The notes under the pieces were generated by a model. The model made no database searches. It had not been told where the DNA came from and worked only from the letters and a program-made list of their open reading frames with translations. This document shows, one piece after another, positions 2,439-26,712 of a DNA stretch of 42,158 bases; position 1 is the stretch's first letter, and each line of letters begins with the position of its first letter. The position numbers and the translations under genes were made by a program. This DNA is from a virus: IMG/VR virus record IMGVR_UViG_3300032562_000064, positions 1 through 42,158 of that record, one strand, 5' to 3'.

Positions 2439-2448
2439 AGGGCATTGC
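2439..2448 (+). promoter_or_regulatory. AGGGCATTGC motif, instance 1
   Basis: The ten-base core lies 41 bases before the ATG at 2480 and is followed by GTAACG. It is one of five plus-strand instances. Confidence 0.6.
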
Positions 2449-2479
2449 GTAACGCGCAACTCCCGCTCTCATTTCCCCC

Positions 2480-2974
2480 ATGAAGAAATCCCGCCCTCGA
2501 TCCGAAATCCTCGCCCAAGACCCGCCAATCCCCTGCATCGGCGTCCCGGCCAAAATCCAGCGCGCAATCTGCGTCATGGTCGACGAAGGGCTGCCAATCC
2601 ACGTCGCAGCCGAACGCGCCGGAATCACAACTCACAAGCTCCGGGTTGCGTTCGCAGACCCGAATGTGCTGGCGTTCACACGGAAGAGGAGGCAGATGCT
2701 CAGAGAGAGCCTGTGCAGCGCAAACGATCATCGGCTGGCAGAGATACGCGACGCGGCGAACAACATGCCTGCCGTCAACGCCATCCTCGCGCTGGAGCGC
2801 ATGACCAATCCCGAGGCGGATGGGCGATCAGCGCCCACGCACGCGATTGGCGTGACGATTCAGATCGTATCGGCGCGGCCAGACGACGGTCAGGGTGTGC
2901 TAATCGACGCAAGTGCGGCCGCTCCCATCGATCGGGACGCGGTCGACGTCGATCTGGAGGAACCCGAGGCGTGA
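2480..2974 (+). CDS. Candidate terminase small subunit (HTH protein), 164 aa
   Basis: A helix-turn-helix is visible at about residues 37-55 (IHVAAERAGITTHKLRVAF), followed by an Arg-rich helix and the segment MPAVNAILALERM, and an acidic C-terminus (DAVDVDLEEPEA). This order (N-terminal HTH, central helices, acidic tail) is typical of small terminase subunits that bind the packaging site. Position upstream of the large subunit, separated only by small genes and an inserted leftward operon, supports the idea. The ATG at 2480 is preceded by a pyrimidine run (ATTTCCCCC) with no ribosome binding site, which is odd for this genome. It could also be a transcriptional regulator. Confidence 0.55.
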   Translation: MKKSRPRSEILAQDPPIPCIGVPAKIQRAICVMVDEGLPIHVAAERAGITTHKLRVAFADPNVLAFTRKRRQMLRESLCSANDHRLAEIRDAANNMPAVNAILALERMTNPEADGRSAPTHAIGVTIQIVSARPDDGQGVLIDASAAAPIDRDAVDVDLEEPEA

Positions 2975-3150
2975 GGGGCGCCGGGGAAAACTGGGCGCTC
3001 CAGTTGAGCTCCTCCCCCCCCTCTGCATTTTTCGGCCTGGGATTTATTGGGGTGTGCTGGAAATTATTGGGGCTTTGGAATTTTGGGTGGCCTGGGATTT
3101 TGAGGCTGAGTACGGCGACTGCGCGAGGAGGGTTTGGTGATGGGTTCTGA
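2971..3150 (+). CDS. Uncertain small ORF, 59 aa, hydrophobic
   Basis: A GTG at 2971 overlaps the preceding stop codon and opens a frame rich in Phe, Gly, Leu and Trp (FGLGFIGVCWKLLGLWNF), possibly one membrane segment. It overlaps the next gene by 11 bases. The neighbouring frame over the same DNA also reads as a Trp-rich peptide that stops exactly at the next start codon. I cannot decide between the two, and the 165 bases before 3140 may simply be non-coding. Confidence 0.25.
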   Translation: MRGAGENWALQLSSSPPSAFFGLGFIGVCWKLLGLWNFGWPGILRLSTATARGGFGDGF

Positions 3151-3283
3151 TCTCGGAGACGGGTTTGGCAAGGCGATGGTCGCTGGAGCGATCGCGGTCG
3201 GGCTTATCGCGTTTGGCTTGGGTGGGTTGTTTGCGTTGTCCATCGAGTGGGTTCAACAGCATGTGTGGCTTGTGCTGCATTGA
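3140..3283 (+). CDS. Small membrane protein, 47 aa
   Basis: ATG at 3140 follows a strong GAGGAGG eight bases upstream. The protein starts MGSDLGDGFGKAM and then has one membrane segment, about residues 13-34 (AVGLIAFGLGGLFAL within it), and a short polar C-terminus ending VQQHVWLVLH. The length, strong ribosome binding site and tight packing with the next gene indicate a real gene. The function is unknown; small single-span proteins like this are common in phage early and accessory regions. Confidence 0.7.
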   Translation: MGSDLGDGFGKAMVAGAIAVGLIAFGLGGLFALSIEWVQQHVWLVLH

Positions 3284-3294
3284 GGGGGTTGGCG

Positions 3295-3531
3295 ATGGCT
3301 TTTCACTGGCGAAGGTTCGACGCTCAGCCGCGGGCGGTGAAGGAGGTCGTTTGGGATTGGAATGTGGACGTGGGGTTTGCGGTTGATCCTGGGGCGGCTA
3401 TCGAGGTTGCGGCGGCGCTTCGTCGCGATGTCGAGCGCCGTTTGCGTGGGGCGCGCGCGGAGGATCGCCGGCGAGGGCGGCGGGTGCGTCCTGGGGGGTT
3501 TGAGCGGTTTATGCCAGGGGCGTCCCGATGA
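3295..3531 (+). CDS. Hypothetical phage protein, 78 aa
   Basis: I place the start at ATG 3295 (MAFHWRRFDAQPRAV…) because a GAGGGGG run lies eight bases upstream and the sequence before it is unlike protein. The frame contains VVWDWNVDVGF and an Arg-rich C-terminal half (LRRDVERRLRGARAEDRRRG). It ends at a TGA that overlaps the next ATG (ATGA), so the two genes are translationally coupled. No known domain recognised. Confidence 0.65.
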   Translation: MAFHWRRFDAQPRAVKEVVWDWNVDVGFAVDPGAAIEVAAALRRDVERRLRGARAEDRRRGRRVRPGGFERFMPGASR

Positions 3532-3719
3532 AGGTTTTGAAGGGCTGGGGTGTGTATTTGCTGCCGGCGGGTGAGAAGCATGTGATGCCGGTCTGCGATT
3601 CTACGGAGCACGCGTGTTCGTCGACGTGCTGGTGCCTACCGCGGCTTGACGGCGATGTATGGGTTCACTCGGCGGCGGACGGGCGCGAGAAGGCCGAGCG
3701 GCTGGAGACGCGGCATTAG
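3528..3719 (+). CDS. Cys-rich small phage protein, 63 aa
   Basis: ATG at 3528 overlaps the upstream stop. The protein has a compact cysteine cluster (VCDSTEHACSSTCWCLPRL) and then VWVHSAADGREKAE. Small phage proteins with a CWC-P motif and a VHxAADGRE ending are common in GC-rich phages, but no function is known to me. The cysteines could bind zinc. Confidence 0.7.
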   Translation: MKVLKGWGVYLLPAGEKHVMPVCDSTEHACSSTCWCLPRLDGDVWVHSAADGREKAERLETRH

Positions 3720-3731
3720 CGAGGCGCGCGG

Positions 3732-3908
3732 GTGAAACTGATCGAGATCAAATCCGAGGCTCAGCGGGTGATGCTGGAGCGCGTTGTGGCTGATCCCGCT
3801 GAGGCTGATCGTCGTGGGATGACGGCGGAGTTGGCGCGCGCGTCGTTAGCGGCGTTTCACGGCCGGCGTGTTTTGCCTACTCGGTTGCACCCTTCGCGGC
3901 GTGGCTGA
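3732..3908 (+). CDS. Small hypothetical protein, 58 aa, GTG start
   Basis: A GTG at 3732 with GAGGCG nine bases upstream opens a frame beginning KLIEIKSEAQRVMLERVVAD, with continuous protein-like composition to TGA at 3906. It lies 12 bases after the preceding gene in the same direction. It overlaps the 3' end of the convergent leftward gene at 3877 by 32 bases. No domain recognised. Confidence 0.5.
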   Translation: MKLIEIKSEAQRVMLERVVADPAEADRRGMTAELARASLAAFHGRRVLPTRLHPSRRG

Positions 3909-4122
3909 GGGCGAGTTCTGAGCGCGCAAAAATACGCAGCCGCTTTGCAGCGCGTGCGGCCCGCGTAGCGGCTAACTCGTCCGCTGCATTTTCCATCGCC
4001 GCCGCGCGCTCGCGATGGGCGAACGCGACGAGCAGACTTACGTGGCCCTCGCGCTTATATGGTAGCGCGCACTCGCAGATTTCCTCGGCTAGCTCTCGCG
4101 CCCGTTCCTCGATCGTGCTCAT
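3877..4122 (-). CDS. Hypothetical protein, 81 aa, coupled to the recombinase
   Basis: The start is ATG at 4122 ([18 protein letters not shown]…), overlapping the recombinase stop codon as ATGA. The protein is predicted mostly helical and charged ([28 protein letters not shown]). It is the last gene of a three-gene leftward operon (5029, 4799, 4122) with stop/start overlaps throughout, so it probably works with, or is co-expressed with, the recombinase. No known family assigned. Confidence 0.7.
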
Positions 4123-4799
4123 TCTTTCGTTTCCCTCTTTCCGTGCGACAGCCCGAGGCGTTTCCTGACGCGCTCGACGGTTTCCGGGTGCCACGGCTTG
4201 CCTGTAACTGTGGCGACGCCGATCCTGTTGAGATGGGTCGCGGCGGCATATTTCCCGAGGTCTTTGATGCTGGTGAATAGGTCGCGCAGGGACTCGGCGC
4301 GGACCATCGCTTTTCCGGCGTCGCGCGCGTTGTGCTCGGGGTTGCCGAGCGGCCGGCCGGATTTTGTACCGACGATCTTGACACGCGCGAGGGCGGCTTT
4401 GGTGCGTTGCGAGATCAGGGCGCGCTCCTTTTCGGCAATGGCGGCGAACAGGTGGAGGATGAACGGATCGACGTCGGGCCCGAGCTCGGCGACGATGAAC
4501 GGAACGCGGTGCGCCATGAGGCCGCTGATGAAGTGGACGTCGCGGGAGAGCCTGTCGAGCTTGGCGACGACGACCGGCGCATTGAGGCGCTTGCCTTCGT
4601 CGATAGCCGCTTTGAGGACGGGGCGCGTGTCGAGCGCGTCTGCGCCCTTGCCAGTCTCGATCTCGACGTATTCCCCGGCGATCGTCATGCCGTTGGCTTC
4701 GCAGAAGATCGCGATGGCGTCGCGCTGGGCGTCGAGCCCGAGGCCGGACCTGCCTTGGCGCTGGGTAGAAACACGTAGGTAGGAGACGACCGGCGTCAT
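4119..4799 (-). CDS. Small serine recombinase (resolvase/invertase family), 226 aa
   Basis: Starting at ATG 4799, the protein opens with [12 protein letters not shown], where Ser11 in the YxRVS motif is the expected nucleophile. It continues with [11 protein letters not shown], the [10 protein letters not shown] motif (catalytic arginine region), [20 protein letters not shown] (the E helix) and a C-terminal region with a probable HTH ([16 protein letters not shown], then [17 protein letters not shown]). The length fits the small serine recombinases (resolvases, invertases, short transposon recombinases), not the large phage integrases. It is the only site-specific recombinase visible, so it may integrate the phage, resolve multimers, or invert a segment. 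It sits in a leftward operon inserted between the packaging genes. Confidence 0.88.
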
Positions 4800-5029
4800 T
4801 TCAGCGCCACATCGATCATCGCGCGCCAGACCGCGGCCATGTCGTCGACGGGCAACTGATCCGCAACACGAACCATCGCCTCCGTCGGCTCTCGCATCTC
4901 TGCAATTGCCCTGCGCGCGTATTTCCGGTAACCTTCCTGATACCCCTCGGGCATTTTGTCCCACGGCAGAAGCCCGTCCCATACGCTGGCCGCGATGATT
5001 TTTGCAACGCGTTCTACGGTCTCGCTCAT
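4796..5029 (-). CDS. Hypothetical phage protein, 77 aa
   Basis: I choose ATG 5029 ([19 protein letters not shown]…). The residues before it are poor and an AAGG lies upstream of this ATG. The protein ends DVALK with its stop overlapping the recombinase start (ATGA). It is of a type often seen in GC-rich phages: [13 protein letters not shown], a [20 protein letters not shown] core and a [12 protein letters not shown] end. Function unknown. It is the first gene of the recombinase operon. Confidence 0.7.
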
Positions 5030-5037
5030 TTTCGGCC

Positions 5038-5101
5038 TTGCGCCCCTGTGCTGTATGTGTGAGGTATGTGCTGGTTTTGGCAAGGCGTCAAGGGGGAAGT
5101 G
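5038..5101. promoter_or_regulatory. Divergent promoter gap between recombinase operon and late block
   Basis: The gap of about 70 bases separates leftward and rightward operons. On the minus strand TTGACG, a 17-base spacer and CATACC resemble a weak promoter for the recombinase operon. No clear sigma-70 boxes were found for the rightward block. Confidence 0.35.
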
Positions 5102-5875
5102 ATGAAGGTCGAACTTTCGAAGCCGACGAACGACAACCAGGGGCTGAGCGCCGAGTTTGCTCAGGTGCCGAGCGTATTCCTCCAGACCTATTCGTCCGAA
5201 CTGCTTGATTGGGCGGCAAATTTGACCGACCGCGGCGAGTTCTTAGACCTCACGCTTTGGAACCCTCCGGGCGCGACAATTCTCAGCGTCGGCTATCAGG
5301 GCAAGGTCAGGCTACGCTGCGCGGTCGCTGTCGGTCAAACGACGAAGGCTGTCCTGCTGCGGATCACGCCGGCCGACGAAGAAGACGTCGCCAAGGTGAG
5401 GAAGCATTGCGAAGACCTCCCGTCGATCATGCGCGCGCATCAGGTGGCGGCTGAGGCGTCCCGCGGCAAAGCCCGCGGCGCGGTCAAGGCGGTGTTCGAC
5501 CTGCCGGATTACTTCGTCGAGCGCTACGGCTTCGAACTGCGCGAGTGGGGCCGCAACATGAAGTCGATCGGGATGGTGAAGACGATCGTGCTGCGCGAAG
5601 GAACGCTTTCAGACCTGTCGCCGGACCCGGAGATCGGCGCCGTGCTCAAAGGTGTGAAGCTGCAAGCGAAGCCCGATCGACACGCGGGCGACGAGCTCTC
5701 GTTGCTGATTTCGCCGGCAACCGAAATGGACAAGCAGACGATTCTCAAGCACGTCGAGAAGATGCAGCGCATCGGCATTCCTGCGCGCGCCCAACTCGTC
5801 GAGCCGCCACGGCCGGGCATCCCGACCATACCCAACATCATCGGCGCCGCCGCGCCTGCGGATGGCGATGTCTGA
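5102..5875 (+). CDS. Hypothetical protein with internal duplication, 257 aa
   Basis: The start at ATG 5102 is favoured by AAGGGGGAAGTG directly upstream; an ATG at 5066 has no such signal. Function not recognised. The protein is built of two similar halves. Residues about 22-105 (VPSVFLQTYSSELLDWA … LLRITPADEEDVAKVRKHCED) and about 134-220 (LPDYFVERYGFELREWG … LLISPATEMDKQTILKHVEK) share hydrophobic spacing, the L.W pair, the (L/I)xIxPAxExD motif and the final KH.E. It ends in a Pro-rich tail. Its stop overlaps the terminase start by one base, so it may assist packaging. Confidence 0.75.
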   Translation: MKVELSKPTNDNQGLSAEFAQVPSVFLQTYSSELLDWAANLTDRGEFLDLTLWNPPGATILSVGYQGKVRLRCAVAVGQTTKAVLLRITPADEEDVAKVRKHCEDLPSIMRAHQVAAEASRGKARGAVKAVFDLPDYFVERYGFELREWGRNMKSIGMVKTIVLREGTLSDLSPDPEIGAVLKGVKLQAKPDRHAGDELSLLISPATEMDKQTILKHVEKMQRIGIPARAQLVEPPRPGIPTIPNIIGAAAPADGDV

Positions 5876-7398
5876 TGGGCGTCTTCAAGATCGCGGCCGG
5901 GACGCAACTGGCGAAGTTCCTCGTCTCGAATAACCCCGTCGACATGATCTTCGGCCCGCTTGGCTCAGCCAAGACGCGGACGATGTGTTTGCGCGTCGGC
6001 CGGCACGCCCAAGAGCAAGACCCGTCGCCGATCGACGGCAAGCGCTACACACGCTTTGCGATGGTCAGAAATTCCATGCCGATGCTCAAGCGCTCGACGC
6101 TGCGCACTTGGCGCGAGACGTATCCAGAAGACCAATATGGTCGCGTCACCGAGGGCGCGACCATGAATCACAAGCTCGCCTATTCGTGGCCCGGCGGCGA
6201 TGTGCGGTGCGAAGTCGACTTCATTTCGCTCGACAAAGACGATGATGTGAAGAAGCTGCGCTCGACCGAATACACGGGCGTCTGCTTCAACGAATTGCCC
6301 TATGTCGAAAAGCTCCTGTTCGATGAGGCCGACTCGCGCTTGCGCTACCCGCCGAAAGAGCATTGTGCGGTGCAGCCAAATGGGCAAAAAGACCCGAAGT
6401 GGCGCGGGCTTCTCGCTGACGGCAACGCTCCCGATGAAGACCACTGGCTCGCCACGATGGCCTATGGGCTCGACCCTCCGGGCGGCCTAACCCAAGCCGA
6501 CCTCGACCTTTTGAAGTGGCCGAAGGAGTGGGGGCTGTTCATGCAGCCGGCAGCGCTGATCGAAGTGCTCGACCAACGCGGCAATGTGATCGATTACACG
6601 GTCAACCCGCGCGCCGAGAACTTGGAGAACCTGCCGAGCGACTATTACGACCGGCAGTTGCGTGGCAAGTCGCGCGCCTGGATCGACTCGCGCCTCATGA
6701 ACCGCGTCGCGCTTGTCGTCGAGGGCCAGCCGGTGTGGCCGATGTTCAATCGCGAGTTCCACGTCTCGAGGGAGCCATTGAAGCCCGTTCCCGGTCACGA
6801 AGTGCTCGTCGCGCTCGACTTCGGGCGCGTCTATCCCGCCGCGCTGTTCGGCCAAGAGGTCAACGGCCGGCTGTTCGTCCAGTTTGAAATCCTGGGCTTC
6901 AACGAGCCGGCGAGCGCCTTCGCCCCGCGCGTGCAGCGCTTCCTCACGCAGAACTATCCGGGCTACAGCGTCCGCTTCGTCGGCGACCCCAAGGGGCGCG
7001 ACAAGGGCCAGCAGACCGAGCAGTCGAGCTACGATATCTTCGCCGCCCACGGCATGCCGGTGCGGCCGGCGCCGGTGAAGATGAACGACATCGCAACGCG
7101 CACCGAAGCCGTCGCCTTCGCACTCAACGACAACCCGGCTGGCGTGCCGCGCATGCAGATTTCGCCGGCCTGCCGAACGCTTGTCGTCGGCTGCGTCGGC
7201 CGCTACCACCTTGAGCGCGAGGAAACGGGCGAGCTAAAGCCTAAGAAGGACAAATACTCCAACCTGTGCGACTCGCTGCAATATTTTGTCCTCGACCGCG
7301 GCGACGGCCGCCGGATGATCGGACTCACGCCGACCGGGATCATCATGCCCATCAAGGTCGCAAAAGGACGGCGGACGATGCGCCGCATTGTCGGCTGA
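5875..7398 (+). CDS. terL: Terminase large subunit, 507 aa
   Basis: The ATPase half has a Walker A motif GPLGSAKT at residues 27-34 and a Walker B region EYTGVCFNE ending in Glu140. The nuclease half has LVALDFGR with Asp315, VGDPKGRD with Asp371 and SNLCDSLQY with Asp466, the expected three acidic residues of the RNase H-like nuclease. The protein packages DNA into the procapsid and cuts concatemers. The length is normal for podovirus terminases. The start overlaps the preceding stop (TGATG), giving translational coupling. Confidence 0.95.
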   Translation: MGVFKIAAGTQLAKFLVSNNPVDMIFGPLGSAKTRTMCLRVGRHAQEQDPSPIDGKRYTRFAMVRNSMPMLKRSTLRTWRETYPEDQYGRVTEGATMNHKLAYSWPGGDVRCEVDFISLDKDDDVKKLRSTEYTGVCFNELPYVEKLLFDEADSRLRYPPKEHCAVQPNGQKDPKWRGLLADGNAPDEDHWLATMAYGLDPPGGLTQADLDLLKWPKEWGLFMQPAALIEVLDQRGNVIDYTVNPRAENLENLPSDYYDRQLRGKSRAWIDSRLMNRVALVVEGQPVWPMFNREFHVSREPLKPVPGHEVLVALDFGRVYPAALFGQEVNGRLFVQFEILGFNEPASAFAPRVQRFLTQNYPGYSVRFVGDPKGRDKGQQTEQSSYDIFAAHGMPVRPAPVKMNDIATRTEAVAFALNDNPAGVPRMQISPACRTLVVGCVGRYHLEREETGELKPKKDKYSNLCDSLQYFVLDRGDGRRMIGLTPTGIIMPIKVAKGRRTMRRIVG

Positions 7399-7868
7399 CC
7401 CCGCGCGTCATCATCCCCGCCGTCGAGCCGAAGGATTGGTTCGTCGTCTTCCACCGATCGGCCTCGACACGATGGCTCGACGCGCTGGCGATGGGCCACT
7501 TCAAGCACGTCAGCGCCTTCGTCTACGTCCCTGAATTTGATGTCTGGCAGTTTTTCGACGCCGAATACAGCGGCTTCCGCAATATCATCGCGACCCACGA
7601 GGCGGCTCGAAAACAGATCGGGCACTATGTCGAATGCGGTTGCGAGATCGTGAAATTCAGCCGCACCGGCGCGAAAATGGGGGCTTCGTCGCGCGCCGGG
7701 TTCTATTGCGTGACCGCCGTCAAGCACCTGCTAGGCGTGCGCGGAAGGGCATTGCGACCCGATGGGCTTTACCGTTTGCTCCTCGCCAACGGAGGCCAAC
7801 TCGTTAATGACGCCGCAAGCTCCAGTCGATCCGATGTTGGCGCAGGAACAGGCGCAGGCGCAGAATAG
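7395..7868 (+). CDS. Conserved phage protein downstream of terminase, about 157 aa, start unclear
   Basis: The clear protein starts near DWFVVFHRSASTRWLD and continues through AMGHFKHVSAF, a Cys-rich middle and VTAVKHLLGVRG, then LRPDGLYRLLLANGG. Small proteins of this look commonly follow terminases in podoviruses; the role is unknown. There is no ATG, GTG or TTG between the terminase stop and this segment. The options are CTG at 7395, overlapping the terminase stop, or GTG at 7266, which would overlap the terminase by 133 bases. I give the CTG coordinate as a placeholder. The 3' end overlaps the next gene by 62 bases. Confidence 0.7.
   Translation: MTPRVIIPAVEPKDWFVVFHRSASTRWLDALAMGHFKHVSAFVYVPEFDVWQFFDAEYSGFRNIIATHEAARKQIGHYVECGCEIVKFSRTGAKMGASSRAGFYCVTAVKHLLGVRGRALRPDGLYRLLLANGGQLVNDAASSSRSDVGAGTGAGAE
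7746..7755 (+). promoter_or_regulatory. AGGGCATTGC motif, instance 2 (within a gene)
   Basis: It lies 61 bases before the ATG at 7807 and is read there as codons AGG GCA TTG (Arg-Ala-Leu), uncommon choices in this GC-rich genome. Confidence 0.55.
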
Positions 7869-8013
7869 CCTCGCCAATGCGATGCAGACGCAGACCCAGG
7901 GCGATATGTCGTCGCTGATGGCGCGTTATGGCACGCAACTGTCGATGGCCGGCGCGAAGACGGGCCCGCTTGTCTCCAGCGCTACGGGCGCAATTCTTCC
8001 CGGCAAGGTCTGA
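7807..8013 (+). CDS. Hypothetical virion-region protein, 68 aa
   Basis: ATG at 7807 follows GGAGGC with good spacing, and the upstream in-frame residues do not look like protein. The sequence is Gln/Ala/Met-rich (PMLAQEQAQAQNSLANAMQ…), then GDMSSLMARYGTQLSMAGAKTG. It is probably helical. It lies three bases before the portal gene. The function is unknown, but the position suggests a head or packaging accessory protein. Confidence 0.65.
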   Translation: MTPQAPVDPMLAQEQAQAQNSLANAMQTQTQGDMSSLMARYGTQLSMAGAKTGPLVSSATGAILPGKV

Positions 8014-8016
8014 GCG

Positions 8017-9630
8017 ATGGCAAAGAAGCCCACACCCAGCCGGAAGCGTGAGCCGACAGATCTGGAAAAGGACGCCGTTGCGCGCCTCGCCGCGGCGCGG
8101 ACCTGGAAGTCGTACATCGAGCTTGACGTGAAGGAGTGCTATTTCCTCGCCACGCCCAATCGCCAGCGCCAGATCAGTTCGATGACGTCGCCAAGCCAAG
8201 CCCGGATGCTCGACGCGCCCGAATTGAACACGGACGAAGCATTCATCATCGTCGAGGACTTCGTCACGGCAGTCATCACGGCGTTCATGCCCGAGGCGGA
8301 AATCTGGTGCGAGCGCGGGCCCGGCATGTTCCTGCCCGGCGGCCGTGATGGCCCGATCTGGAATCAGATTAAGGACCAGATCAAGGAAGACGACAACAAA
8401 ATCTTCGAGGCGATCAAAGGCTCGAATTTCTATGCCGAGTTGCCAAAAGCCTACAACCCGGACTTGGCGATAGGGACCGCCGCGGTTTGGATTGAGCCGC
8501 CGCACCCAGGCGGGGCCATCGTGACGACGGCGATCCCGCTCCGCGAGCTTGAGATCGACCTCGGGCCTGATGGCAAGATCGACTATCGCGCTGCGGTGCG
8601 CTTCACGCGCAACCATTATATCCAGCATCTTGTCGGCGAGGCCGTGTGGGCCAAGGTTCCGCAGGAGATCAAAGACGCCTGCAAGGACAAGGCAAGCGAC
8701 CGAACGCAGATCATTTGGGCGTTCTGGCGGGATTGGGAAGATCATTCCGATACCGTCTGGCAGCACGTCATTATGATCGACAACCAGATCATCCACGAGG
8801 AGAAGCTGACAGGTGAAGGTTCCTGCCCGCTGATCCCCCATCGCTTTGGCGCCACGGCTGACTGGCCGCACGGCGTCGGGCCGCTCATCAAGAGTCTGCC
8901 CAGCTTTCGGCAGATCGACGAACTCGAATACATGCGGACCAATCACGCCGCGCTGTCGATCAACCCGCCAATCACCTATCCCGACGACTCGTTTGCCGCC
9001 GTCGAGCAGGGCGTCGAAGAAGGCATGGCCTATCCGATCCGGCCGGGCAGCGAGGGCGCCGTGAAGGCGATTTATACCGTCCCGCCGCCCGAGGTCGCAA
9101 ACTATCAGTACACGGAGAAGTTGAAGAAACTGCGCAAGCTGTCGTTTGTCGACTATCCCGAGCAGACTGGCGACACCCCGCCGACGCTCGGGCAATGGCT
9201 TGACGAAATGGCGCGCGCGCAGCGACGTCTCGGCACGCCCGGCTTGCCCTATTGGAATGAGGGTCCGGCCGAAATCTTCCTCCGGTTCAAGTGGCTCCTT
9301 GAGCGCAAGGGCGTCATTCGACCCGTGCAGGTCGACGGGCGCGCGATCTCGACCATGCCGCGCAACCCTGCGCAGGCCGCGGCCGAGCAGCAAGAAGTCG
9401 GCATGGCGATCAAGGCCGCGCAGTTCCTGTCGACGATGTTTCCCGAGGAATGGAAAATGTACATCGACGGCCAGAAGTCGATGCAGGACATCCTCGCCAA
9501 GATGCGCGTTACACTGTTCAAGTTCCGCAGCCAGGATCAGATCAAGGCGGCGGTCGCATCGATCTCGCAACTCGTAGGCGCTCGTCATGCCGGCGGCGTT
9601 CCAGATCAGACGCCTGGTCCGAGCGCATGA
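8017..9630 (+). CDS. Portal (head-tail connector) protein, 537 aa
   Basis: The size, position two genes after the terminase and overall pattern match podovirus head-to-tail connectors. There is a basic N-terminus (KKPTPSRKREP), EAFIIVEDFVTAVITAFMP early, a central region with LGPDGKIDYRAAVRFTRNHY, LIPHRFGATADWPHGVGP and LPSFRQIDELEYMRTNHAALS, and a long C-terminal helical part. The portal forms the dodecameric ring at one vertex through which DNA enters and leaves. Its stop overlaps the next start (ATGA). Confidence 0.9.
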   Translation: MAKKPTPSRKREPTDLEKDAVARLAAARTWKSYIELDVKECYFLATPNRQRQISSMTSPSQARMLDAPELNTDEAFIIVEDFVTAVITAFMPEAEIWCERGPGMFLPGGRDGPIWNQIKDQIKEDDNKIFEAIKGSNFYAELPKAYNPDLAIGTAAVWIEPPHPGGAIVTTAIPLRELEIDLGPDGKIDYRAAVRFTRNHYIQHLVGEAVWAKVPQEIKDACKDKASDRTQIIWAFWRDWEDHSDTVWQHVIMIDNQIIHEEKLTGEGSCPLIPHRFGATADWPHGVGPLIKSLPSFRQIDELEYMRTNHAALSINPPITYPDDSFAAVEQGVEEGMAYPIRPGSEGAVKAIYTVPPPEVANYQYTEKLKKLRKLSFVDYPEQTGDTPPTLGQWLDEMARAQRRLGTPGLPYWNEGPAEIFLRFKWLLERKGVIRPVQVDGRAISTMPRNPAQAAAEQQEVGMAIKAAQFLSTMFPEEWKMYIDGQKSMQDILAKMRVTLFKFRSQDQIKAAVASISQLVGARHAGGVPDQTPGPSA

Positions 9631-9974
9631 GCCAGGAAGTTTCAGATCAGGATCTGCGGGAAGCGATCGACCGCATCGCTCGAACAGCGGACGGCGGAAT
9701 TCTCTATCTCTATTTGCAAAAGACGCTGTGTGGAGTCGCCTCGGACGACAGCGAGAGGGCATTGCAAGCCGACCACGGTCGCCGCAGGTTCGCTCAGCAA
9801 CTCATGGGACTTATGTCCGAGGGCGTCTCTGTAAATGGTCGATCAGGTTCCGTCACCTTCACCGTCGCCTCCCGCGATCCCCGCCCCGACCGTAAGCCCG
9901 GCGCTCGTCTTGTCGGCCCCGGATCCTTTGTCCCCGGATTCTCAGACCCCGCCCGCGAGCCCCCCGGCAAGTAA
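9627..9974 (+). CDS. Bbp19-like phage protein, 115 aa
   Basis: Starting at ATG 9627, the frame reads SQEVSDQDLREAIDRIARTA, then ILYLYLQKTLCG and FAQQLMGLMSEG, the hallmarks of the small Bbp19-type proteins that sit between portal and scaffold in BPP-1-like podoviruses. Their role is not established to my knowledge. The last 45 or so residues overlap the beginning of the scaffold gene by 140 bases, and the end (Pro/Arg/Gly-rich) looks less conserved, so the useful domain is probably residues 1-70. Confidence 0.75.
   Translation: MSQEVSDQDLREAIDRIARTADGGILYLYLQKTLCGVASDDSERALQADHGRRRFAQQLMGLMSEGVSVNGRSGSVTFTVASRDPRPDRKPGARLVGPGSFVPGFSDPAREPPGK
9756..9768 (+). promoter_or_regulatory. AGGGCATTGCAAG motif, instance 3 (within a gene)
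   Basis: The full 13-base form lies 79 bases before the scaffold ATG at 9835. In the Bbp19-like frame it encodes Arg-Ala-Leu-Gln with codons AGG GCA TTG CAA. Confidence 0.6.
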
Positions 9975-10623
9975 ACGCCCGGCCTACGTCCCCGAGTCGT
10001 TTTGGGACGCGACCAACGGCAAGGTCAAAGATACCGAGTTCGCCGCTCACTACAACGAGTTGCAGACGCGCGTCGCCGCGGATGACTCGCGACGGCTGAC
10101 GATCCCCGCCAAGCCCGAGGATTACGTCGTCGCGCTCCCCAAGGACTTCGCCCTTCCCGACGGCGTCAAGTTCGATCTCGACGCGTCGAATCCGCTTTGG
10201 TCGCAGGGCCAGCAATGGGCAACCAAACACGGTCTGAGCCAGGACGCCTTCGCCGAAGCCATCGCGCTCGTCGCCGGCGACCGCGTCGGCACGCAAGCGC
10301 AGATCACTCAGGCGCGCAACGCAGAAATCGCCAAGCTCGGCGTCAACGGCACGGCGCGCGTCACGGCGATCGAGACCTGGGCCACGGGCGTTCTCGGCAG
10401 CGAGTCCGCGGGCAAGCAGTTTACGTCGCGCTTGTTCACCGCGTCCGACGTCCAGATGGCCGAAGCCCTGATTTCGCGCTTCACCGGCAGCGGCAACTTC
10501 CGCTCTGGCGGACGCGAGCCGCCCGAGGCCGCCGGCAAGATCACCGAGGCGCAATATCAGGCGATGTCGCTTCCGCAGCGCCTCGCCTATGCGCGCGAGC
10601 AGTCCGCCAAGAGGGCGTCATGA
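9835..10623 (+). CDS. Scaffold / capsid assembly protein, 262 aa
   Basis: The N-terminal 50 residues are Pro/Ser/Ala-rich and disordered. A segment with YVPESFWDATNGKVKDTEF and PEDYVVALPKDFALPDG follows, then a helical C-terminal half rich in Ala, Gln and Arg that ends with a basic tail (YAREQSAKRAS). This layout and the position directly upstream of the major capsid gene match phage scaffolding proteins, which guide procapsid assembly and then leave. The unusually long overlap with the previous gene falls in the disordered part. The stop overlaps the next start. Confidence 0.8.
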   Translation: MVDQVPSPSPSPPAIPAPTVSPALVLSAPDPLSPDSQTPPASPPASKRPAYVPESFWDATNGKVKDTEFAAHYNELQTRVAADDSRRLTIPAKPEDYVVALPKDFALPDGVKFDLDASNPLWSQGQQWATKHGLSQDAFAEAIALVAGDRVGTQAQITQARNAEIAKLGVNGTARVTAIETWATGVLGSESAGKQFTSRLFTASDVQMAEALISRFTGSGNFRSGGREPPEAAGKITEAQYQAMSLPQRLAYAREQSAKRAS

Positions 10624-10835
10624 GCGTCTTCACCATTTCGTTCAACGACCCGGCCTTCGACAAGAAGTCGTCGGAAGTCGCCTACATCGCCAAGACTCTC
10701 GACCTCGTCAAGAACGAACTGGTCCGCGCCGGCGGCGCTGTCACGTCGGGGACCATCCTTGGCGTGAACCATCTTGGCGTCGCCAACACGAGTCTCGGCT
10801 CGTGGACCTACACGCCCAGCGCATCCAAGCCCTAA
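10620..10835 (+). CDS. Small head-region protein, 71 aa
   Basis: ATG at 10620 overlaps the scaffold stop (ATGA). The sequence starts MSVFTISFNDPAFDKKSSEV, with a beta-rich C-terminal half (GTILGVNHLGVANTSLGSWT). It lies between scaffold and capsid in the same transcript. The function is not recognised; a minor capsid or decoration role is possible from position only. Confidence 0.7.
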   Translation: MSVFTISFNDPAFDKKSSEVAYIAKTLDLVKNELVRAGGAVTSGTILGVNHLGVANTSLGSWTYTPSASKP

Positions 10836-10853
10836 AGGGGAGAATCCTAAGTC

Positions 10854-11807
10854 ATGGCCGTCTCGAATCTCCTCACGCTGACCGAATACGCCAAGGGCAT
10901 GGCTCCCGAGGACGTCCGCCGTCCCGTAATCGAAATGTTCACGCAATATTCGGACGTCTTCGAGGTCATGCCCTTCGAGGGCTTGAAGGGCTCGAAGTAT
11001 GTCGGCTATCGCGAGGCCGCGCTGCCGCAGCCTGTGTTCCGCGCGATCAACGAAGCGTCCTCGTCCGGCCACGGCACGATTTCGCCGTTCGACGAAGCGA
11101 CCTACATCATCGACCACGACATTGACGTCGATCGCGCGATCCAGGATCGTTTCGGCCCCGAGCGCCGCAACTATGAGGAGCGCATGGGCATCACCGCCTT
11201 CGCGCGTCTCTGGATCGACACGTTCGTCAAGGGCGACCAGTCGGTCAATCCGCGCGTCTTCAACGGCATTCAGGTCCGCGCGCAGCGGTTCGGCCGCCTC
11301 TACAACAACTCGACCGCCAACGGCGGCGCCGCGCTCTCGCTCGCCAACCTCGACCAGATGCTCAACAACCTGTCGCATAAGAGCGGCACGAGCTTTCTGT
11401 TCGTCCCCTTCGTCTCGCTGCCGCTGTGGATTCAGGCCGCTCGCACCACGACCCTGACCGGCTTCGTCATGCAGACCTGGGACGAAACCGGCATGCCGAA
11501 ACTATCCTATGCCGGCCACCGCCTGTTGTTCGGCTATCCGAAGGACGACCAACAGCCGGTGCTCCAGTTCAACGAAGTCCCCAACGGGACCGGAACCGCG
11601 GCGAGCGCGTCGCTCTACGGGCTGACGCTCGGCGAGGGCATGCTGCGCGGCATCTACGTGCGCAACCTGACCCCGGAAGACGTCGGGCTTCTCCAGGACC
11701 GCAAGACCTACCGGACCCATATCTCCTGGGACGTCGGCTTGGTCGACGAGTTCAAATACTGCCTGACGCGCCTGACGTCGTGGACCAACGCGCCGATCGT
11801 CGCCTAA
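10854..11807 (+). CDS. Major capsid protein, 317 aa
   Basis: AAGGGGAG lies upstream of ATG 10854, a strong ribosome binding site suited to high expression. The protein begins SNLLTLTEYAKGMAPEDVRR, has the SDVFEVMPFEGLKGSKYVGYR segment in which conserved phage capsid proteins contact neighbours, then long helical and beta regions, ending SWTNAPIVA. The length and order after scaffold match HK97-fold capsids of BPP-1-like podoviruses (Bbp17 type). It forms the icosahedral shell. Confidence 0.92.
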   Translation: MAVSNLLTLTEYAKGMAPEDVRRPVIEMFTQYSDVFEVMPFEGLKGSKYVGYREAALPQPVFRAINEASSSGHGTISPFDEATYIIDHDIDVDRAIQDRFGPERRNYEERMGITAFARLWIDTFVKGDQSVNPRVFNGIQVRAQRFGRLYNNSTANGGAALSLANLDQMLNNLSHKSGTSFLFVPFVSLPLWIQAARTTTLTGFVMQTWDETGMPKLSYAGHRLLFGYPKDDQQPVLQFNEVPNGTGTAASASLYGLTLGEGMLRGIYVRNLTPEDVGLLQDRKTYRTHISWDVGLVDEFKYCLTRLTSWTNAPIVA

Positions 11808-11831
11808 TCGACTGACCCAAAGGAGGCCCTG

Positions 11832-12383: not shown

Positions 12384-12387
12384 TCCA

Positions 12388-13541: not shown

Positions 13542-13564
13542 TTTTCTGACGACCAAGAAAGCGT

Positions 13565-13603
13565 GCGGCGCAAAGGGTTCCTCACCGGGGCCTTTTGCGC
13601 CGC
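13565..13603 (+). terminator. Strong hairpin after the capsid block
   Basis: GCGGCGCAAAGG pairs with CCTTTTGCGCCGC (one bulged base) around a 14-base loop. There is no T-run after it, so it may be an attenuator or RNA-processing/stability element instead of a full intrinsic terminator. It divides head genes from tail genes and precedes an AGGGCATTGCAAG motif. Confidence 0.6.
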
Positions 13604-13618
13604 TCTTGCGTCTGCGGT

Positions 13619-13631
13619 AGGGCATTGCAAG
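13619..13631 (+). promoter_or_regulatory. AGGGCATTGCAAG motif, instance 4
   Basis: It lies in the gap between the hairpin and the adaptor gene, 40 bases before ATG 13659. This placement suggests that it restarts or regulates expression of the tail block. Confidence 0.65.
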
Positions 13632-13658
13632 GCGCCTACGCTCGGATGACGCTATCTC

Positions 13659-14384
13659 ATGCCCTACCAATGGCCGCTCGACGACGTCGGAATCATCAAC
13701 AGCGCGCTCGCATTGACGGGCGACAATACCGTCTCGGAAGCCGATGACGGCTCCGACGAATGGAACGTCTGCTCGCCCGCCTATCAGCGCGGGCTTTCCT
13801 ATGCGATGGAAAGCCATAGCTGGGGCTTCGCTACGCAGGTTGTGACACTCCAGCCGAGCCCGACACCGCCGCAAGACACGCAATGGGACACAGCCTATCC
13901 GATCCCGAGCGACTGCGTCCATATCATCTGGCTCAAGATCAATCAGGACAACTCGTCGGCCAATGGCGCGACGCTGACGCTTTACGACATCGCTGGGTCG
14001 CCGACAGGCCCCATGATCGTCGTCAATGCCCAGGGTGGCCCGCCCCCGCCCGCGCCGCCGCGTGTTCCGTCCGCGATCACGATCAAATACGTCTCGAACT
14101 CGGGCCCGCTGACCAACGCGGCCAACGGCACGCCGACGCTGATCCTCGCGCTTCAATCGTTCGTCATGTCGGGCATCTACCGCGGCCTGCATGAAGACAC
14201 GGCCGAAGGCGACAAGATGTGGATGGCCGGCGAGCACATGTTGCAAATGGCGCGGACGCGCTACGACCAACAGAAGCCCAAGCGGCAGTTCTTCAATTCG
14301 CGCATGGCGGCAGCGCGCCGCGTGCGTCGTCCCTGGCCGCCGACCGGCAACGACAATTGGGGCGGCTCGAACACGCCGGGGTAA
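13659..14384 (+). CDS. Tail tubular protein A-like adaptor, 241 aa
   Basis: The frame opens PYQWPLDDVGIINSALALTG, with an early segment about the many-helix adaptor fold (RGLSYAMESHSWGFAT), then YPIPSDCVHIIWLKIN, a Gly/Pro loop (GGPPPPAPPR), and a helix-rich C-terminus (GIYRGLHEDTAEGDKMW). This pattern, with W-F and YPIPSDC-like signature, matches podovirus adaptor proteins (T7 gp11 type) that join portal and nozzle. It is followed directly by the nozzle gene. Confidence 0.8.
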   Translation: MPYQWPLDDVGIINSALALTGDNTVSEADDGSDEWNVCSPAYQRGLSYAMESHSWGFATQVVTLQPSPTPPQDTQWDTAYPIPSDCVHIIWLKINQDNSSANGATLTLYDIAGSPTGPMIVVNAQGGPPPPAPPRVPSAITIKYVSNSGPLTNAANGTPTLILALQSFVMSGIYRGLHEDTAEGDKMWMAGEHMLQMARTRYDQQKPKRQFFNSRMAAARRVRRPWPPTGNDNWGGSNTPG

Positions 14385-14387
14385 GGC

Positions 14388-16931: not shown

Positions 16932-17383
16932 CCGACCCGGTGACAGCGGTTGCGCTCGGCTCGATGGCGCTGAAAGCCGGCGGCTCCGTGTTGGGCGGCG
17001 TAGGGACGGCAAACGCCGACACCTATAAGGCGCAGGAACTCGACCTCGCCTCGCAGGAAGGAACGCTCAAGGCCACGCAGACCAACGCGGGCCTGACGCG
17101 CAACCTGTCGAACACGCTGGCGAACATCGACGCTGTGCGCGCGTCCGCCCACACCGACATCACGTCGCCGACCGGCGCGGCGGTGCGCGGCCAGACCGAA
17201 GCGACGGCGAGCGACAATAAAGGCATTCAGGTCGGTTCGATCATGGCGCAGGCCAGTGAGGACGCTGCGGGCGCGGCCTATATGAGGTCCGCATCGAGCA
17301 CGGCGCTCCTCGGCGGCCTTGCGGGCGGGTTGGCCGCCGGTATCCAGGGCGTCGCGGGCCTGCCTGCGCTCAGTGGGGGCTGA
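16928..17383 (+). CDS. Internal virion protein (gp14-like), 151 aa
   Basis: ATG 16928 overlaps the nozzle stop. The sequence starts DPVTAVALGSMALKAGGSVLG and ends SSTALLGGLAGGLAAGIQGVAG, so hydrophobic Gly/Ala-rich ends flank a polar helical middle. This is the composition and position of the small ejection protein of podoviruses, which leaves the capsid first and makes a pore in the outer membrane. Similarity to T7 gp14 is of layout, not of sequence. Confidence 0.7.
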   Translation: MTDPVTAVALGSMALKAGGSVLGGVGTANADTYKAQELDLASQEGTLKATQTNAGLTRNLSNTLANIDAVRASAHTDITSPTGAAVRGQTEATASDNKGIQVGSIMAQASEDAAGAAYMRSASSTALLGGLAGGLAAGIQGVAGLPALSGG

Positions 17384-17385
17384 TA

Positions 17386-20300: not shown

Positions 20301-20640
20301 GCCATCTGAACTTCCCGCCGCGCTTGGCCTGGCTGGCGCAGGCGGCCCGATGGGTGAAACTGCGCTCGGCTCGACAGACGCCGACGACCGCTACAAGACG
20401 CCGCGCTCGCTGCTTTCCGACAAAACGACGGAGGCCGACCTAGCCGCCGGCAAGCCTCCATCATATCAGGTCGCGCTTCAAGACCCGAACGGCCGATGGT
20501 CCGCGCTGACGGAACCGAGCGGGGCAGCGACGCGCGTTCGCTTCGACCCGGCGCAATATCAGACTGACCTCGCCGCGAAGATGGAGCGCATCGCGCCATT
20601 CGCCCGCGCGCTGGCCGCAACGCATCCCCAGGGTTTCTGA
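17386..20640 (+). CDS. Internal virion protein with GH108-type muramidase domain, 1084 aa
   Basis: This is a large, mostly helical protein (Ala, Gln, Lys and Asp-rich) between the small and the very large ejection proteins. At about residues 390-505 it contains MRMEGGYTVDNGGPTRFGVS with Glu400, followed by DAKEIYRSRYWNAI and QFVALYGAAASGPGKAKEWI. This matches the GH108 lysozyme fold (EGGY…GGxTxFGIxx, then a D-x-A-like substrate helix). The domain would open the peptidoglycan during DNA ejection. A peptidoglycan hydrolase in an ejection protein is known for podoviruses (T7 uses gp16), but here it sits in the middle-sized protein. Confidence 0.85.
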   Translation: MVDILDTLPKEVATTAIPRAPLSAGDVAQPWQEMSRAADQLGTALGDVAIPLAKRQAAQDINSGAASKVTRAPDGSVQIATPENAPLIFGEAGKAYEAAVVQGTAAKASNMISQDFTEGHAKFPLDPAGYKAWATAHLQEIAKQQGNTPLGQEILRQGGDLLTQHLNGITNATASNDIENSKKSILANIDDKKNALQAFAATPGGTESPKYAQTLAEYDALHNGLANNPLFKMPADQIALERKEFVGTLRGEALVGHIDDTVQKTNKAEAQKQLGQLLQDPDIPREEAMRLYRQGMSHLELATNEQRADYKAAKEGLDQVIKGFAEGKLDPSDPKIAQLAKQAFAAGNPDVAYQLQSVVAAHNGHLTLDGLPAAARAQATDGLSPVSGFDASVSQVMRMEGGYTVDNGGPTRFGVSQRGNPDVNAATLTPGDAKEIYRSRYWNAIGGDQLPSNMQFVALYGAAASGPGKAKEWIAQAGGDPNKFLDIQDAFQRRLIANDPTSYARYAQSWQNRIAEERRMVNGGAVPPGPQGGSNPHDLPEYFRALAESKDTRANAFGAASDAALQALKLGNPITPDAMTLIAQTAATGTPEQKAKAAEIYGQQQAQMALATGGKDRVIPSGGDRAPSPMSDAQRDVAAQQWMAGAAKATDLLTQRMLQSAAEYAKTQDKRFQEAPMAEGARRFSLAPPNPIDPAQPSDVAGNVAYRGVLAQHIGELNGTAKPGLLDKDEGSSLRAVLTGQAGAQVLGQIATAVRPQDMDALAREPAFKESVVGMSKSDDPAKRRSAFGFMNTLANRDVQTFKAAFGEEGIKDLSAWQGLTSMMTDDAATKRMMQYNDPSTVGARDALEKVATKALESVTAAQVVSKFSTGLWPFGTTAQAPVNTADAVNASAVLHSEYNRVYRDVFAQTADTASADTAAMNVLKTKFAVSPSNGNRVMANAPETHYPEVAGSHDWISHQLDDIVAAHVGKSPSELPAALGLAGAGGPMGETALGSTDADDRYKTPRSLLSDKTTEADLAAGKPPSYQVALQDPNGRWSALTEPSGAATRVRFDPAQYQTDLAAKMERIAPFARALAATHPQGF

Positions 20641-20643
20641 CTA

Positions 20644-23600
20644 ATGCCGACGTTCCCGGAAGGCCAAGACCCGCTCGACCAGGGCCGCGCGCCCGTCTAC
20701 GGGACAGTTCCCTTTGCCCAGCCAAGCGCCGCGCCGGCGCCGACGACTGGCGAAACGATCAGCGCAGCCTTCCGCCTCAACAACCCGGTCGTGTCTGTCC
20801 TCGACGCGCTCAGCCGCAACAGCGGCTATCACGAACCCGTCGCCGGCTACGATGCGATCCCGCGCCTTGTCGGCACGAAATACGAGCCGCTGCTCGAGCA
20901 GTCGTTGGTCGACCAAAGCCCAGGCGAGACGGACGCGCGGATGGCGAAGTTCGACTCTGAGCAGAAGGACATCGCGACGAACGCCGCCTCGGGTTGGGTC
21001 GGCGTGGCCGCGAACATCGTTGCCGGCGCAACTGACCCGTCATGGTTCATCCCGGTATTCGGCGAGGCGCATGCGGCCGGTGAGGGCTTGTCGATCGCAG
21101 CGCGCGCGGCGCGCGGCGCTTTCGAAGGCGCGCTGAAATCGACCGTGAGCGAAGCCGCGCTCATGTCGTCGCAAGTCACGCGCACCCCGCGCGAGGCCGT
21201 GGCGGACATCGCGACGAACACGCTGCTGATGGGACTGATCGGTGGCGGCGCTGGCTGGCTGAGCCGCGGCGAGCACACGAACGCCGTCGACGGACTGGAG
21301 GCGGTGCGCCGCGACCTATCGCCGACGCCAGAAACTCAGGCCGTAGCGGCCGTCGACGGCGGCGCCCAAGCCGGCGGCCCGCTGACGTTGCGCGATCTGA
21401 TCCCCGCCTATGAGAAGGCGCGCGCCGACCAGGGCGGTTTCTCGTCCGTCAAAATATCTGACGTTCTGCGCGAGAGCGGCGTTCCGAAAGAGGACGTGCA
21501 ACGTGTGCTGCTCGAGGAAGCCAAGGCCGGCAACGTCACGATCCATCCGACGACGTCTGAACACGCGCTCGCCGACCAAGCGATGCAGGATGCAGCGATT
21601 CGTATCCCAGGGCGCGAGGAGCCGCTGACGCACGTCGACATGAGCGATGCAGCCCAGCGCGCCGAGCCAGACCGCGTGCCCGTCGAAGTCGCGCCGTCGC
21701 CGCGCGGGCTGGCGAACGATCTCAGCGCCGCGTCGTCCGATCAGCGCGACATGCAGCTTTCGCGCATTGGCTTGCCACCGTCCTATCAGGAGGCGATCCG
21801 CCAAGTTGGCGCCGGGAAAGCGCTCGACGTCTTCACCGCGGCGACGATGCACATGTCGCCGAACCTGCGCGTCTATTCGTCGCTGTCGCTGGCGGCAAAG
21901 CGCACGATGGGCGACCTTGTCGACACGGCGCTGAAATTCACCCAGGCGGCTCGCGGCGTGACGGCGGCGCGCGGCGGCGTGACGGTCGAACGCATCGGGA
22001 AAATCCTTGAGCCGAAGTTCAACCGCGAAGCGCGCGACGCGATGCGGGACGGCTTCATTGCCTACCGCAAGATGCAGGGCCAAAAATTCGCCATGCTGCG
22101 CACCGCGGTCTCGGATTTCCGCGCCGCCGATCACCCGCAGATGACATGGGAGGACTTCAATAAGGCGGTCTATGTGGCCGGCACGCAGGCCGACGCGCAT
22201 GAGGTTCCCGAAGTCGCCGCGACCGCCGCGCGCATACGCGCCAAGATCATCGACCCGATTGCGCAGAAAGCCGAAAGCGTGATTGGGCCTGACGGCAAGC
22301 CCATGCTTTCCGCCGAGCGCGAGCCGCCGAAGGGCGACAAGTCATTCATGCCGCGCATGTGGGACAAGACGAAGATCGCCGCCGGCTACAACAAAATCCA
22401 TCGCGTCATTTCCGATTGGCTCGAAGGCGAGCAAGCCCGGAAACTCGACTTGCGCGACAAGCTGGAAATGTTGCAGCGCAAGCACGAAAACCTTGGCCGC
22501 GACATCGAAGAACTCGACCCTGCGCAGAACAAGTGGCGTGAAGATCAACGTGCGCAACTTCGTTCGCGCATGGAAGAACTGCTGACCGATTGGCGCGGCA
22601 ACACGACGGACGAAGCCATTGCGGCGCTCAAAGCGCGCGAGCGCGGGGAAGCGACGAGTCCCGAGCGCGTAAGCCCGTCGAAATCGGCAGACAAGGCCGT
22701 TGACGCCGCGATCAAGAAAATTCTCGAAAGCGACAAACTCGACCTCACGCGCTCAGAAATAGAGGGCCGCGCCCACGAAATCCTGGCGCGCATCAACACG
22801 GCGCCCGATGGCCGGCTACCCTACGACATGGGCAGCGGCGGCCCGCAGATGGGTGCCCCAGGCTCGCCGCAGAACGCTGTGCGCGGATCGCTCAACGCGC
22901 GCGACTTCGCCATCCCGTCGCACCTTGTTCAAGACTTCGTCCATACGGACATGCAGCACGTCATGTCGTCGTTTGTGCGAACGACCGTTCCCGATATTCA
23001 CCTGACCGAACGCTTCGGCGACGTCGACATGATCGAGGCGTTCCGCAAGATCGATGAAGATTACGCCGCGGCGAAGACGGCGGCCGGCGACGACGCGAAG
23101 AAGCTGCTGGCGATCGACGCCGAGCACAAGGCGATCGTGCGCGACGTCGCCGCGATGCGCGACCGCGTCCGGCATGTCTATGGCTGGGAAATGGCGAAGT
23201 CGCAGCCCAACATGGCGCGGCTCGCCAACGATGCGAAGAACTTCAACTTGCTCACGGATCTCGGAACGTCCGTGTTCAACCGCCTCAACGACGCCACGAA
23301 TGCGGTCTGGCGCCACGGGCTCATGAACGTGTTCGCCGATGGCTACATGCCGTTCTTCAAGTCGCTGACGGGCATGGAAAAGGACTTCATGCCGGCGGCG
23401 CGGCAGTCGATGAAGGATATGCAAGTCGGCGTCGACACGGTCGGCGGCCACCTGTCGCATCAGTTCGGCGATGTGCTCGACAACATGCGGCCCGGCAATC
23501 CGTTTCAGCGCGCGCTGTCATGGGCCGGCGAGAAGTCGATGATGGTCAACCTGCATGCCCAATGGACGGACGGCATCAAGACGATCACCGGAACCGCCGC

Positions 23601-24480
23601 CGCGGCGAACTTCCTGCGCACGGCGGAGAAGGTGACGCTCGGGACAGCGAGTGAAGCCGACATCGCCAAGCTCGCCCAGGCCGGAATTGAGCCGTTCATG
23701 GCGCGGCGCATATGGGAGTCGTTCAAAGCCCCCGGCGGCGGCGAGACGTTCAATGGGCGCACGCACGTCGCCAACTCGGCGGCATGGGCCGACAAAGGCG
23801 CGGCAGACACCTTCGCGGCCACGATCGGCCAGGACGCCGATAAGTCCGTCCTGATGCCCGGAATGGGCGAGAAGGCGCTGTGGACAGATCAGCCAGTTCT
23901 CTCGCTCATCGGGCAATATCACTCGTTCATCATGGCCGCGCACGAGAAGCTGCTGATCTCGAACCTCCAGCAAATGGACATCCACACGCTCGAAGGGCTT
24001 ATCGCTTCGATCGGCATGGGCATGATCTCGTATCGCGCCTACACGCTCTGGAGTGGCGCTCCGGCGAGCGACAGGCCGCAGGATTGGATCAAGGAGGCGA
24101 TCTCGCGCTCGGCGATGACGGGTTGGCTGAGCGAGGCCAACGCCGTGCAATCCAAATTCACCGGCGGCAAGAGCGACATGTTCCGCCTCATCGGCGCCGA
24201 CAATCCGCTGTCGCGTCGGCAGACATCGAGCGCAACGGCCGACCTGCTCGGCTCGACCTACGCCAAGATCGAAGGCATCGCCGGCGGCGTCAACGACCTC
24301 TCGCACGGGTCTTGGAACGCTATGGACACGCATAAGTTGCGGCAGCTCATGTGGTTTCAGAACCTGTTCGCAATCCGCAAGCTGCTCGACAATGCCGAAG
24401 ACGGGTTCAACGAGCGCCTGGGGGTCAAGCCGATGAACCGCGATCCGTCGCTTTGGGGGCCGAAACAACAAGCGCCCTAG
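20644..24480 (+). CDS. Very large internal/ejection protein (gp16-like), 1278 aa
   Basis: The protein is long, helical and soluble, with Pro-rich start (PTFPEGQDPLDQGRAPVYG), hydrophobic Gly/Ala helices near residues 115-140 and 180-205, long charged coiled-coil parts (about residues 590-720) and a C-terminal half with a hydrophobic LIASIGMGMISYRAYTLW. The position after two internal proteins and the size match the largest ejection protein of T7-like phages, which spans the periplasm. I see no lytic transglycosylase motif at its N-terminus, consistent with the muramidase lying in the previous gene. Confidence 0.8.
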   Translation: MPTFPEGQDPLDQGRAPVYGTVPFAQPSAAPAPTTGETISAAFRLNNPVVSVLDALSRNSGYHEPVAGYDAIPRLVGTKYEPLLEQSLVDQSPGETDARMAKFDSEQKDIATNAASGWVGVAANIVAGATDPSWFIPVFGEAHAAGEGLSIAARAARGAFEGALKSTVSEAALMSSQVTRTPREAVADIATNTLLMGLIGGGAGWLSRGEHTNAVDGLEAVRRDLSPTPETQAVAAVDGGAQAGGPLTLRDLIPAYEKARADQGGFSSVKISDVLRESGVPKEDVQRVLLEEAKAGNVTIHPTTSEHALADQAMQDAAIRIPGREEPLTHVDMSDAAQRAEPDRVPVEVAPSPRGLANDLSAASSDQRDMQLSRIGLPPSYQEAIRQVGAGKALDVFTAATMHMSPNLRVYSSLSLAAKRTMGDLVDTALKFTQAARGVTAARGGVTVERIGKILEPKFNREARDAMRDGFIAYRKMQGQKFAMLRTAVSDFRAADHPQMTWEDFNKAVYVAGTQADAHEVPEVAATAARIRAKIIDPIAQKAESVIGPDGKPMLSAEREPPKGDKSFMPRMWDKTKIAAGYNKIHRVISDWLEGEQARKLDLRDKLEMLQRKHENLGRDIEELDPAQNKWREDQRAQLRSRMEELLTDWRGNTTDEAIAALKARERGEATSPERVSPSKSADKAVDAAIKKILESDKLDLTRSEIEGRAHEILARINTAPDGRLPYDMGSGGPQMGAPGSPQNAVRGSLNARDFAIPSHLVQDFVHTDMQHVMSSFVRTTVPDIHLTERFGDVDMIEAFRKIDEDYAAAKTAAGDDAKKLLAIDAEHKAIVRDVAAMRDRVRHVYGWEMAKSQPNMARLANDAKNFNLLTDLGTSVFNRLNDATNAVWRHGLMNVFADGYMPFFKSLTGMEKDFMPAARQSMKDMQVGVDTVGGHLSHQFGDVLDNMRPGNPFQRALSWAGEKSMMVNLHAQWTDGIKTITGTAAAANFLRTAEKVTLGTASEADIAKLAQAGIEPFMARRIWESFKAPGGGETFNGRTHVANSAAWADKGAADTFAATIGQDADKSVLMPGMGEKALWTDQPVLSLIGQYHSFIMAAHEKLLISNLQQMDIHTLEGLIASIGMGMISYRAYTLWSGAPASDRPQDWIKEAISRSAMTGWLSEANAVQSKFTGGKSDMFRLIGADNPLSRRQTSSATADLLGSTYAKIEGIAGGVNDLSHGSWNAMDTHKLRQLMWFQNLFAIRKLLDNAEDGFNERLGVKPMNRDPSLWGPKQQAP

Positions 24481-24481
24481 C

Positions 24482-24494
24482 AGGGCATTGCAAG
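24482..24494 (+). promoter_or_regulatory. AGGGCATTGCAAG motif, instance 5
   Basis: It begins two bases after the ejection-protein stop and 42 bases before the tailspike ATG, in a gap that otherwise holds only a ribosome binding site. Confidence 0.65.
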
Positions 24495-24523
24495 CCCGCT
24501 CCCGGCCGCGCGAGGCTCCCGGC

Positions 24524-26710: not shown

Positions 26711-26712
26711 AC

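Follow-up and report, generated by a model that had tools for sequence, protein, structure and literature searches.

A lineage-specific word ahead of late genes in a podovirus and its relatives: the probable upstream half of a phage-specific late promoter

What a ten-nucleotide word recurring in one orientation ahead of late genes might do was considered for a 42 kb podovirus record, analysed over its whole length of 42,158 nucleotides (the window). The virion genes of the window are T7-like: terL, head-tail adaptor (portal position), capsid, tail tubular A and B, internal virion protein and a spike-position gene. The word AGGGCATTGC, pointed out in the initial annotation, is present in five exact copies, all on the plus strand, at 2439, 7746, 9756, 13619 and 24482; the minus strand of the window holds zero exact copies, and a single further match is obtained with one mismatch allowed. 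The computed expectation is 0.03–0.09 copies per strand (ca. 0.05 in the initial annotation). Outside repeats, AGGGCATTGC is the top over-represented 10-mer (Poisson 1.8e-10); the best 10-mer in 30 order-3 Markov simulations reached 7.5e-8, which leaves AGGGCATTGC over two orders of magnitude ahead. The AAG extension (at 9756, 13619 and 24482), the distances to the next ATG (41, 61, 79, 40 and 42 nt for 2439, 7746, 9756, 13619 and 24482, respectively) and the codons AGG GCA TTG used by the in-gene copies at 7746 and 9756 were all confirmed.

With high confidence the word is read as the -35 part of a phage-specific late promoter, recognised by the RNA polymerase of the host together with a factor of the sigma-70 type and starting approximately at the ATG; this reading is adopted because of the fixed spacing, the -10 element, the leaderless start codons and the conservation in relatives. 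Of the three functions offered earlier, the phage-specific promoter is thus retained, the RNA element is abandoned, and the activator site appears likely. In the proposed layout, G-N-K-C-N-TTG(C/A), the TTG would stand at -35 and be followed by a 16–18 bp spacer and a -10 of the form nAnnnT; the transcript would begin at the ATG or within 1–2 nt of it, and the host polymerase carrying the sigma-70-type factor would read the late promoters in this way.

Promoter geometry: The initial annotation held that no sigma-70 boxes fit; this is refuted, as TTGCnn, 16–18 bp and nAnnnT are found at most sites, the TTGC of the word lying at -35 and a minimal -10 following the spacer. An A-n3-T at 19–21 nt after the word was counted at 38 of 49 non-redundant sites (shuffles: mean 2.9, maximum 9). 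In a held-out set, made up of contigs of other clades that had been left aside when the -10 pattern was defined, it was present at 33 of 40 sites, mostly at exactly 20 nt (shuffles: mean 3.1, maximum 9); sites embedded in genes carry it at 20 nt in 33 of 78 cases. Alignment of 16 C sites (the site ahead of the tail tubular A gene, in the window and 15 relatives) gave an invariant G, C, TTGC, A and ATG and a nearly invariant T. TTGCnn, 17 bp and nAnnnT together amount to sigma-70 geometry, which would put the transcript start approximately at the ATG. One exception at -35 was noted: the GGGCAGTGC lineage has AGTG where the others have ATTG, with its TTG. Sigma-54 promoters have GG at -24 and GC at -12, 10 bp apart; no conserved GG was found at the required spacing upstream of TTGC, either at word sites in relatives or in the C-site alignment, and a sigma-54 promoter was ruled out for this misfit of spacing.

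The sites in the window, all on the plus strand: Site E (2439–2448, exact match) precedes the first late gene (2480–2974), terS-like by its position and a terminase-small candidate in the initial annotation; the gene belongs to a small family conserved in 14 of 17 contigs, and gave no Pfam or PHROG match. A-n3-T is absent at the consensus -10 spacing of site E; homologous E sites in relatives have the word 39–43 nt ahead of the ATG. Site A (7746–7755) lies inside a small gene ending at 7868, upstream of the pre-portal gene (7807–8013), and is likewise devoid of A-n3-T at consensus spacing, so that in the window the -10 is present at sites B, C and D and missing at A and E. Site B (9756–9765) lies inside a small gene (9627–9974), upstream of the scaffold-position gene (9835–10623), for which a weak PHROG 'protease' match was the only one obtained; its putative -10 is CAGGTT (9785–9790), read with the statistics of embedded sites. 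The tail tubular protein A gene (13659–14384; phrog_394, E 7.9e-22) has its ATG 40 nt after the first base of site C (13619–13628); the putative -10 of this site is GACGCT (13648–13653), the A column of which is invariant and the T column nearly so. Site D (24482–24491) begins 42 nt ahead of the start of the spike-position gene (24524–26710; no strong family match, assigned by its position), and its putative -10 is GAGGCT (24512–24517). Directly behind the spike gene, a gene at 26569–27381 contains an Rv2525c-like glycoside hydrolase domain above the Pfam cut-off; it is perhaps a lysis enzyme.

Start codons: Outside the embedding genes the word begins 39–43 nt before the ATG. An ATG frame at 39–42 nt follows 43 of 86 word copies, versus 94 of 3587 other NNNNNTTGC words; the base preceding the ATG is C in 80%. 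A Shine-Dalgarno sequence was found in 24% of genes preceded by the word at 40 nt, versus 21% at random positions; the corresponding values for interior late genes with enough copies are 56–100%. The absence of a Shine-Dalgarno sequence and the ATG at the expected +1 support translation of the genes behind C, D and E from leaderless mRNAs, the tail tubular A and spike-position genes among them, with the start itself placed by the geometry. The late blocks at C, D and E would be made as leaderless mRNAs, late timing being presumed; at A and B, transcripts would begin upstream of genes having a Shine-Dalgarno sequence.

The strand bias and the constant distance to the ATG would also suit an RNA element, i.e., a leader, a processing site or the site of a translational regulator, fixed in place relative to the start codon. 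Such an element is considered very improbable: RNAalifold gave no pairs and no consensus fold on the 16 C sites, no Rfam match was obtained, no start codon lies 40 nt after the word at sites A and B, an RNA element would have no need of the -10 found at sigma-70 spacing, and the word lies upstream of the presumed transcript start. Even less credit is given to a promoter of a phage-encoded single-subunit RNA polymerase of T7 style, for which the T7-like virion genes and the recurrent plus-strand sites could be quoted; the -35/-10 geometry suits sigma-70, and no RNA_pol (PF00940) match was found in 20 contigs, the control genomes being equally silent. A search for a phage sigma factor gave sub-threshold matches to sigma region 4 only.

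Conservation and spelling: The late promoter reading is further supported by relatives. The word is kept by position in ca. 100 related contigs as well as in prophages of Rhizobiales and Ruegeria. Sites A and B both lie within small conserved genes, and at site A the codon phase of the word within the homologous gene varies among relatives, all three phases being represented; selection therefore acts on the DNA, as had been suspected from the unusual codons. The spelling differs by lineage (GTGCGTTGC, GTGCTTTGC, GATCATTGC, GGGCAGTGC and others) and is nearly always uniform within one genome. Among 68 fetched loci encoding a capsid relative, AGGGCATTGC is missing save for two near-identical contigs and three stray matches; the homologous places have one different word throughout, GTGCGTTGC in most loci and GATCATTGC in one subgroup. 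GTGCGTTGC was counted 100 times on the late strand versus 4 on the opposite one, and ten relatives of 44–50 kb have five to eight word copies apiece, nearly always on the late strand. GTGCTTTGC is the word of Rhizobiales prophages (one of them in Brucella tritici), GGGCAGTGC of another prophage of the same order, GTGCGTTGA of the deposited isolate Mwe-JY08, GTGCATTGT of a Ruegeria prophage and GTGCGGTG of two contigs; the series reaches relatives with approximately one third capsid identity. Sites A and B are spelled alike in 66 of 69 contigs, a count inflated by relatedness. Judged from these sequences, scattered sites have changed spelling together, and they form a natural series for studying the co-change of a transcription factor and its sites. 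No description of the promoter word, and nothing relevant on Mwe-JY08, was found in the literature searched, from whose scope subscription journals were largely absent.

Microcystis phage Mwe-JY08 (L135, PP395640.1) is recorded with a cyanobacterial host, its relatives are Rhizobiales prophages, and it encodes a DUF2312 protein; its true host may be an associated alphaproteobacterium. In three contigs (L191, L192 and L193) the capsid gene and its neighbour, around 9974–11495, were swapped between two phage clades, and the other late genes stayed.

Reader of the word: An activator site overlapping the -35 would likely explain the lineage-specific spelling, and the late promoters are probably activator-dependent. 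The candidate reader is family 15, a small XRE-like protein with basic C-terminal helices encoded just before the late region (40535–41002, plus strand). The widely shared families comprise the virion genes, the terS-like gene, two others and family 15. Family 15 is present wherever the early region could be inspected: of 50,697 phage records only that of Mwe-JY08 gave a match, three multi-Mb host genomes gave a single match each, located in the prophage, and 11 of 14 further records gave a match, the three misses being fragments of 16–31 kb. Across the host order (398 genomes), most additional family 15 matches fall where neither these late genes nor the word is present; the GGGCAGTGC prophage was reached through one of them (L161). 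The AlphaFold model is helical (mean pLDDT 77); the top fold matches belong to XRE-type helix-turn-helix proteins and all fall short of significance (PDB E above 0.1); no Pfam HTH match was found in the family members scanned. Co-occurrence and genomic place link family 15 to the word, and its binding of the word, as candidate activator, is rated slightly better than an even chance; in the proposed mechanism a phage-encoded activator, most likely family 15, would contact the lineage-specific spelling.

By a partial Mantel test, spelling is linked to both family 15 and capsid, the two being not separable. The capsid-swap contigs were rejected as proof that spelling tracks family 15: nearly the whole backbone tracks spelling there, and only the capsid genes were exchanged. 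As family 15 is thereby not singled out, and as conservation extends to the terS-like family (14 of 17 contigs), the promoters could be real and read by the terS-like product or by an unrecognised phage protein. This is considered possible and rather unlikely, since the terS-like gene itself stands behind site E, and family 15 looks XRE-like, lies just before the late region and is found wherever that region is available. GcrA, a cell-cycle regulator of alphaproteobacteria, was discarded as common activator, being encoded in just 7 of 17 contigs and absent from the window; the seven relatives with the GcrA-like protein (PF07750) are G001, G002, G003, G012, G013, G015 and G016.

Instead, a regulator or an alternative sigma factor of the host might read the same promoters, with spelling varying with the host; the geometry is sigma-70-like, and the lineages may differ in host, relatives sitting in Rhizobiales and Ruegeria genomes. 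A host reader is nevertheless considered unlikely, to a slightly greater degree than another phage protein. The full GTGCTTTGC pattern gave 2–4 matches in each of three host genomes, approximately half of them on prophage contigs; this rarity argues against a general host promoter and against such a host regulon, and prophages of related hosts differ in spelling. A pattern scan of the whole collection gave, among the matches listed, mostly single ones, as chance would give, and was set aside.

Known systems: By analogy the late promoter resembles three systems and is assigned to none. At T4 middle promoters the MotA box is used in sigma appropriation by AsiA/MotA (PMC6755090); as proposed here, a phage word replaces the -35 and the sigma-70 -10 is retained. 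The MotA box is centred at ca. -30, whereas the word would be centred at ca. -36 with the TTG kept, and late, leaderless transcripts would be made from it. At lambda CII promoters, activator contacts flank the poor -35 of a sigma-70 promoter, the sites being two TTGC repeats. Contacts of an activator flanking a poor -35 would be common to both; the word has one TTGC with a non-repeated 5' extension, in contrast to the CII repeats. GafY, a phage-derived protein, activates the Caulobacter gene transfer agent via sigma-70 (RpoD) and binds far upstream together with IHF (PMC11150451). A phage-derived activator (here a candidate) acting with sigma-70 on virion genes in an alphaproteobacterium would be the shared feature; unlike the GafY sites, the word coincides in part with the -35, and at least five places carry it. 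For Sinorhizobium meliloti, 171 leaderless transcripts beginning at AUG were mapped (PMC3616915); the transcripts presumed here would also start at AUG in alphaproteobacteria, but they would cover late blocks of one phage group and not scattered host genes.

Taken as a whole, a clade-wide late regulon is conceivable, in which a novel XRE-like phage protein steers the host sigma-70 polymerase to a private -35 word, word and protein change together, and late virion genes are leaderless; this complete picture is put at a little less than an even chance. The late-promoter code should be readable from sequence, which would make late operons predictable in soil phages and alphaproteobacterial prophages. 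The phage group is large and almost uncultured, one deposited isolate having been found. The data suggest that a phage could rely on leaderless mRNAs for much of its late programme.

Further features of the window: Exact repeats of 99–127 bp were found (1–123 = 1421–1543; 535–661 = 1699–1825; 42060–42158 = 760–858), adjoined within 1–1825 by a 12-bp tandem repeat at ca. 799–1060; the ends of the contig resemble an assembly tangle or a circular-map overlap. A gene at 38628–39275 resembles the MTES_1575 / DUF559 endonuclease families, below the Pfam cut-off.
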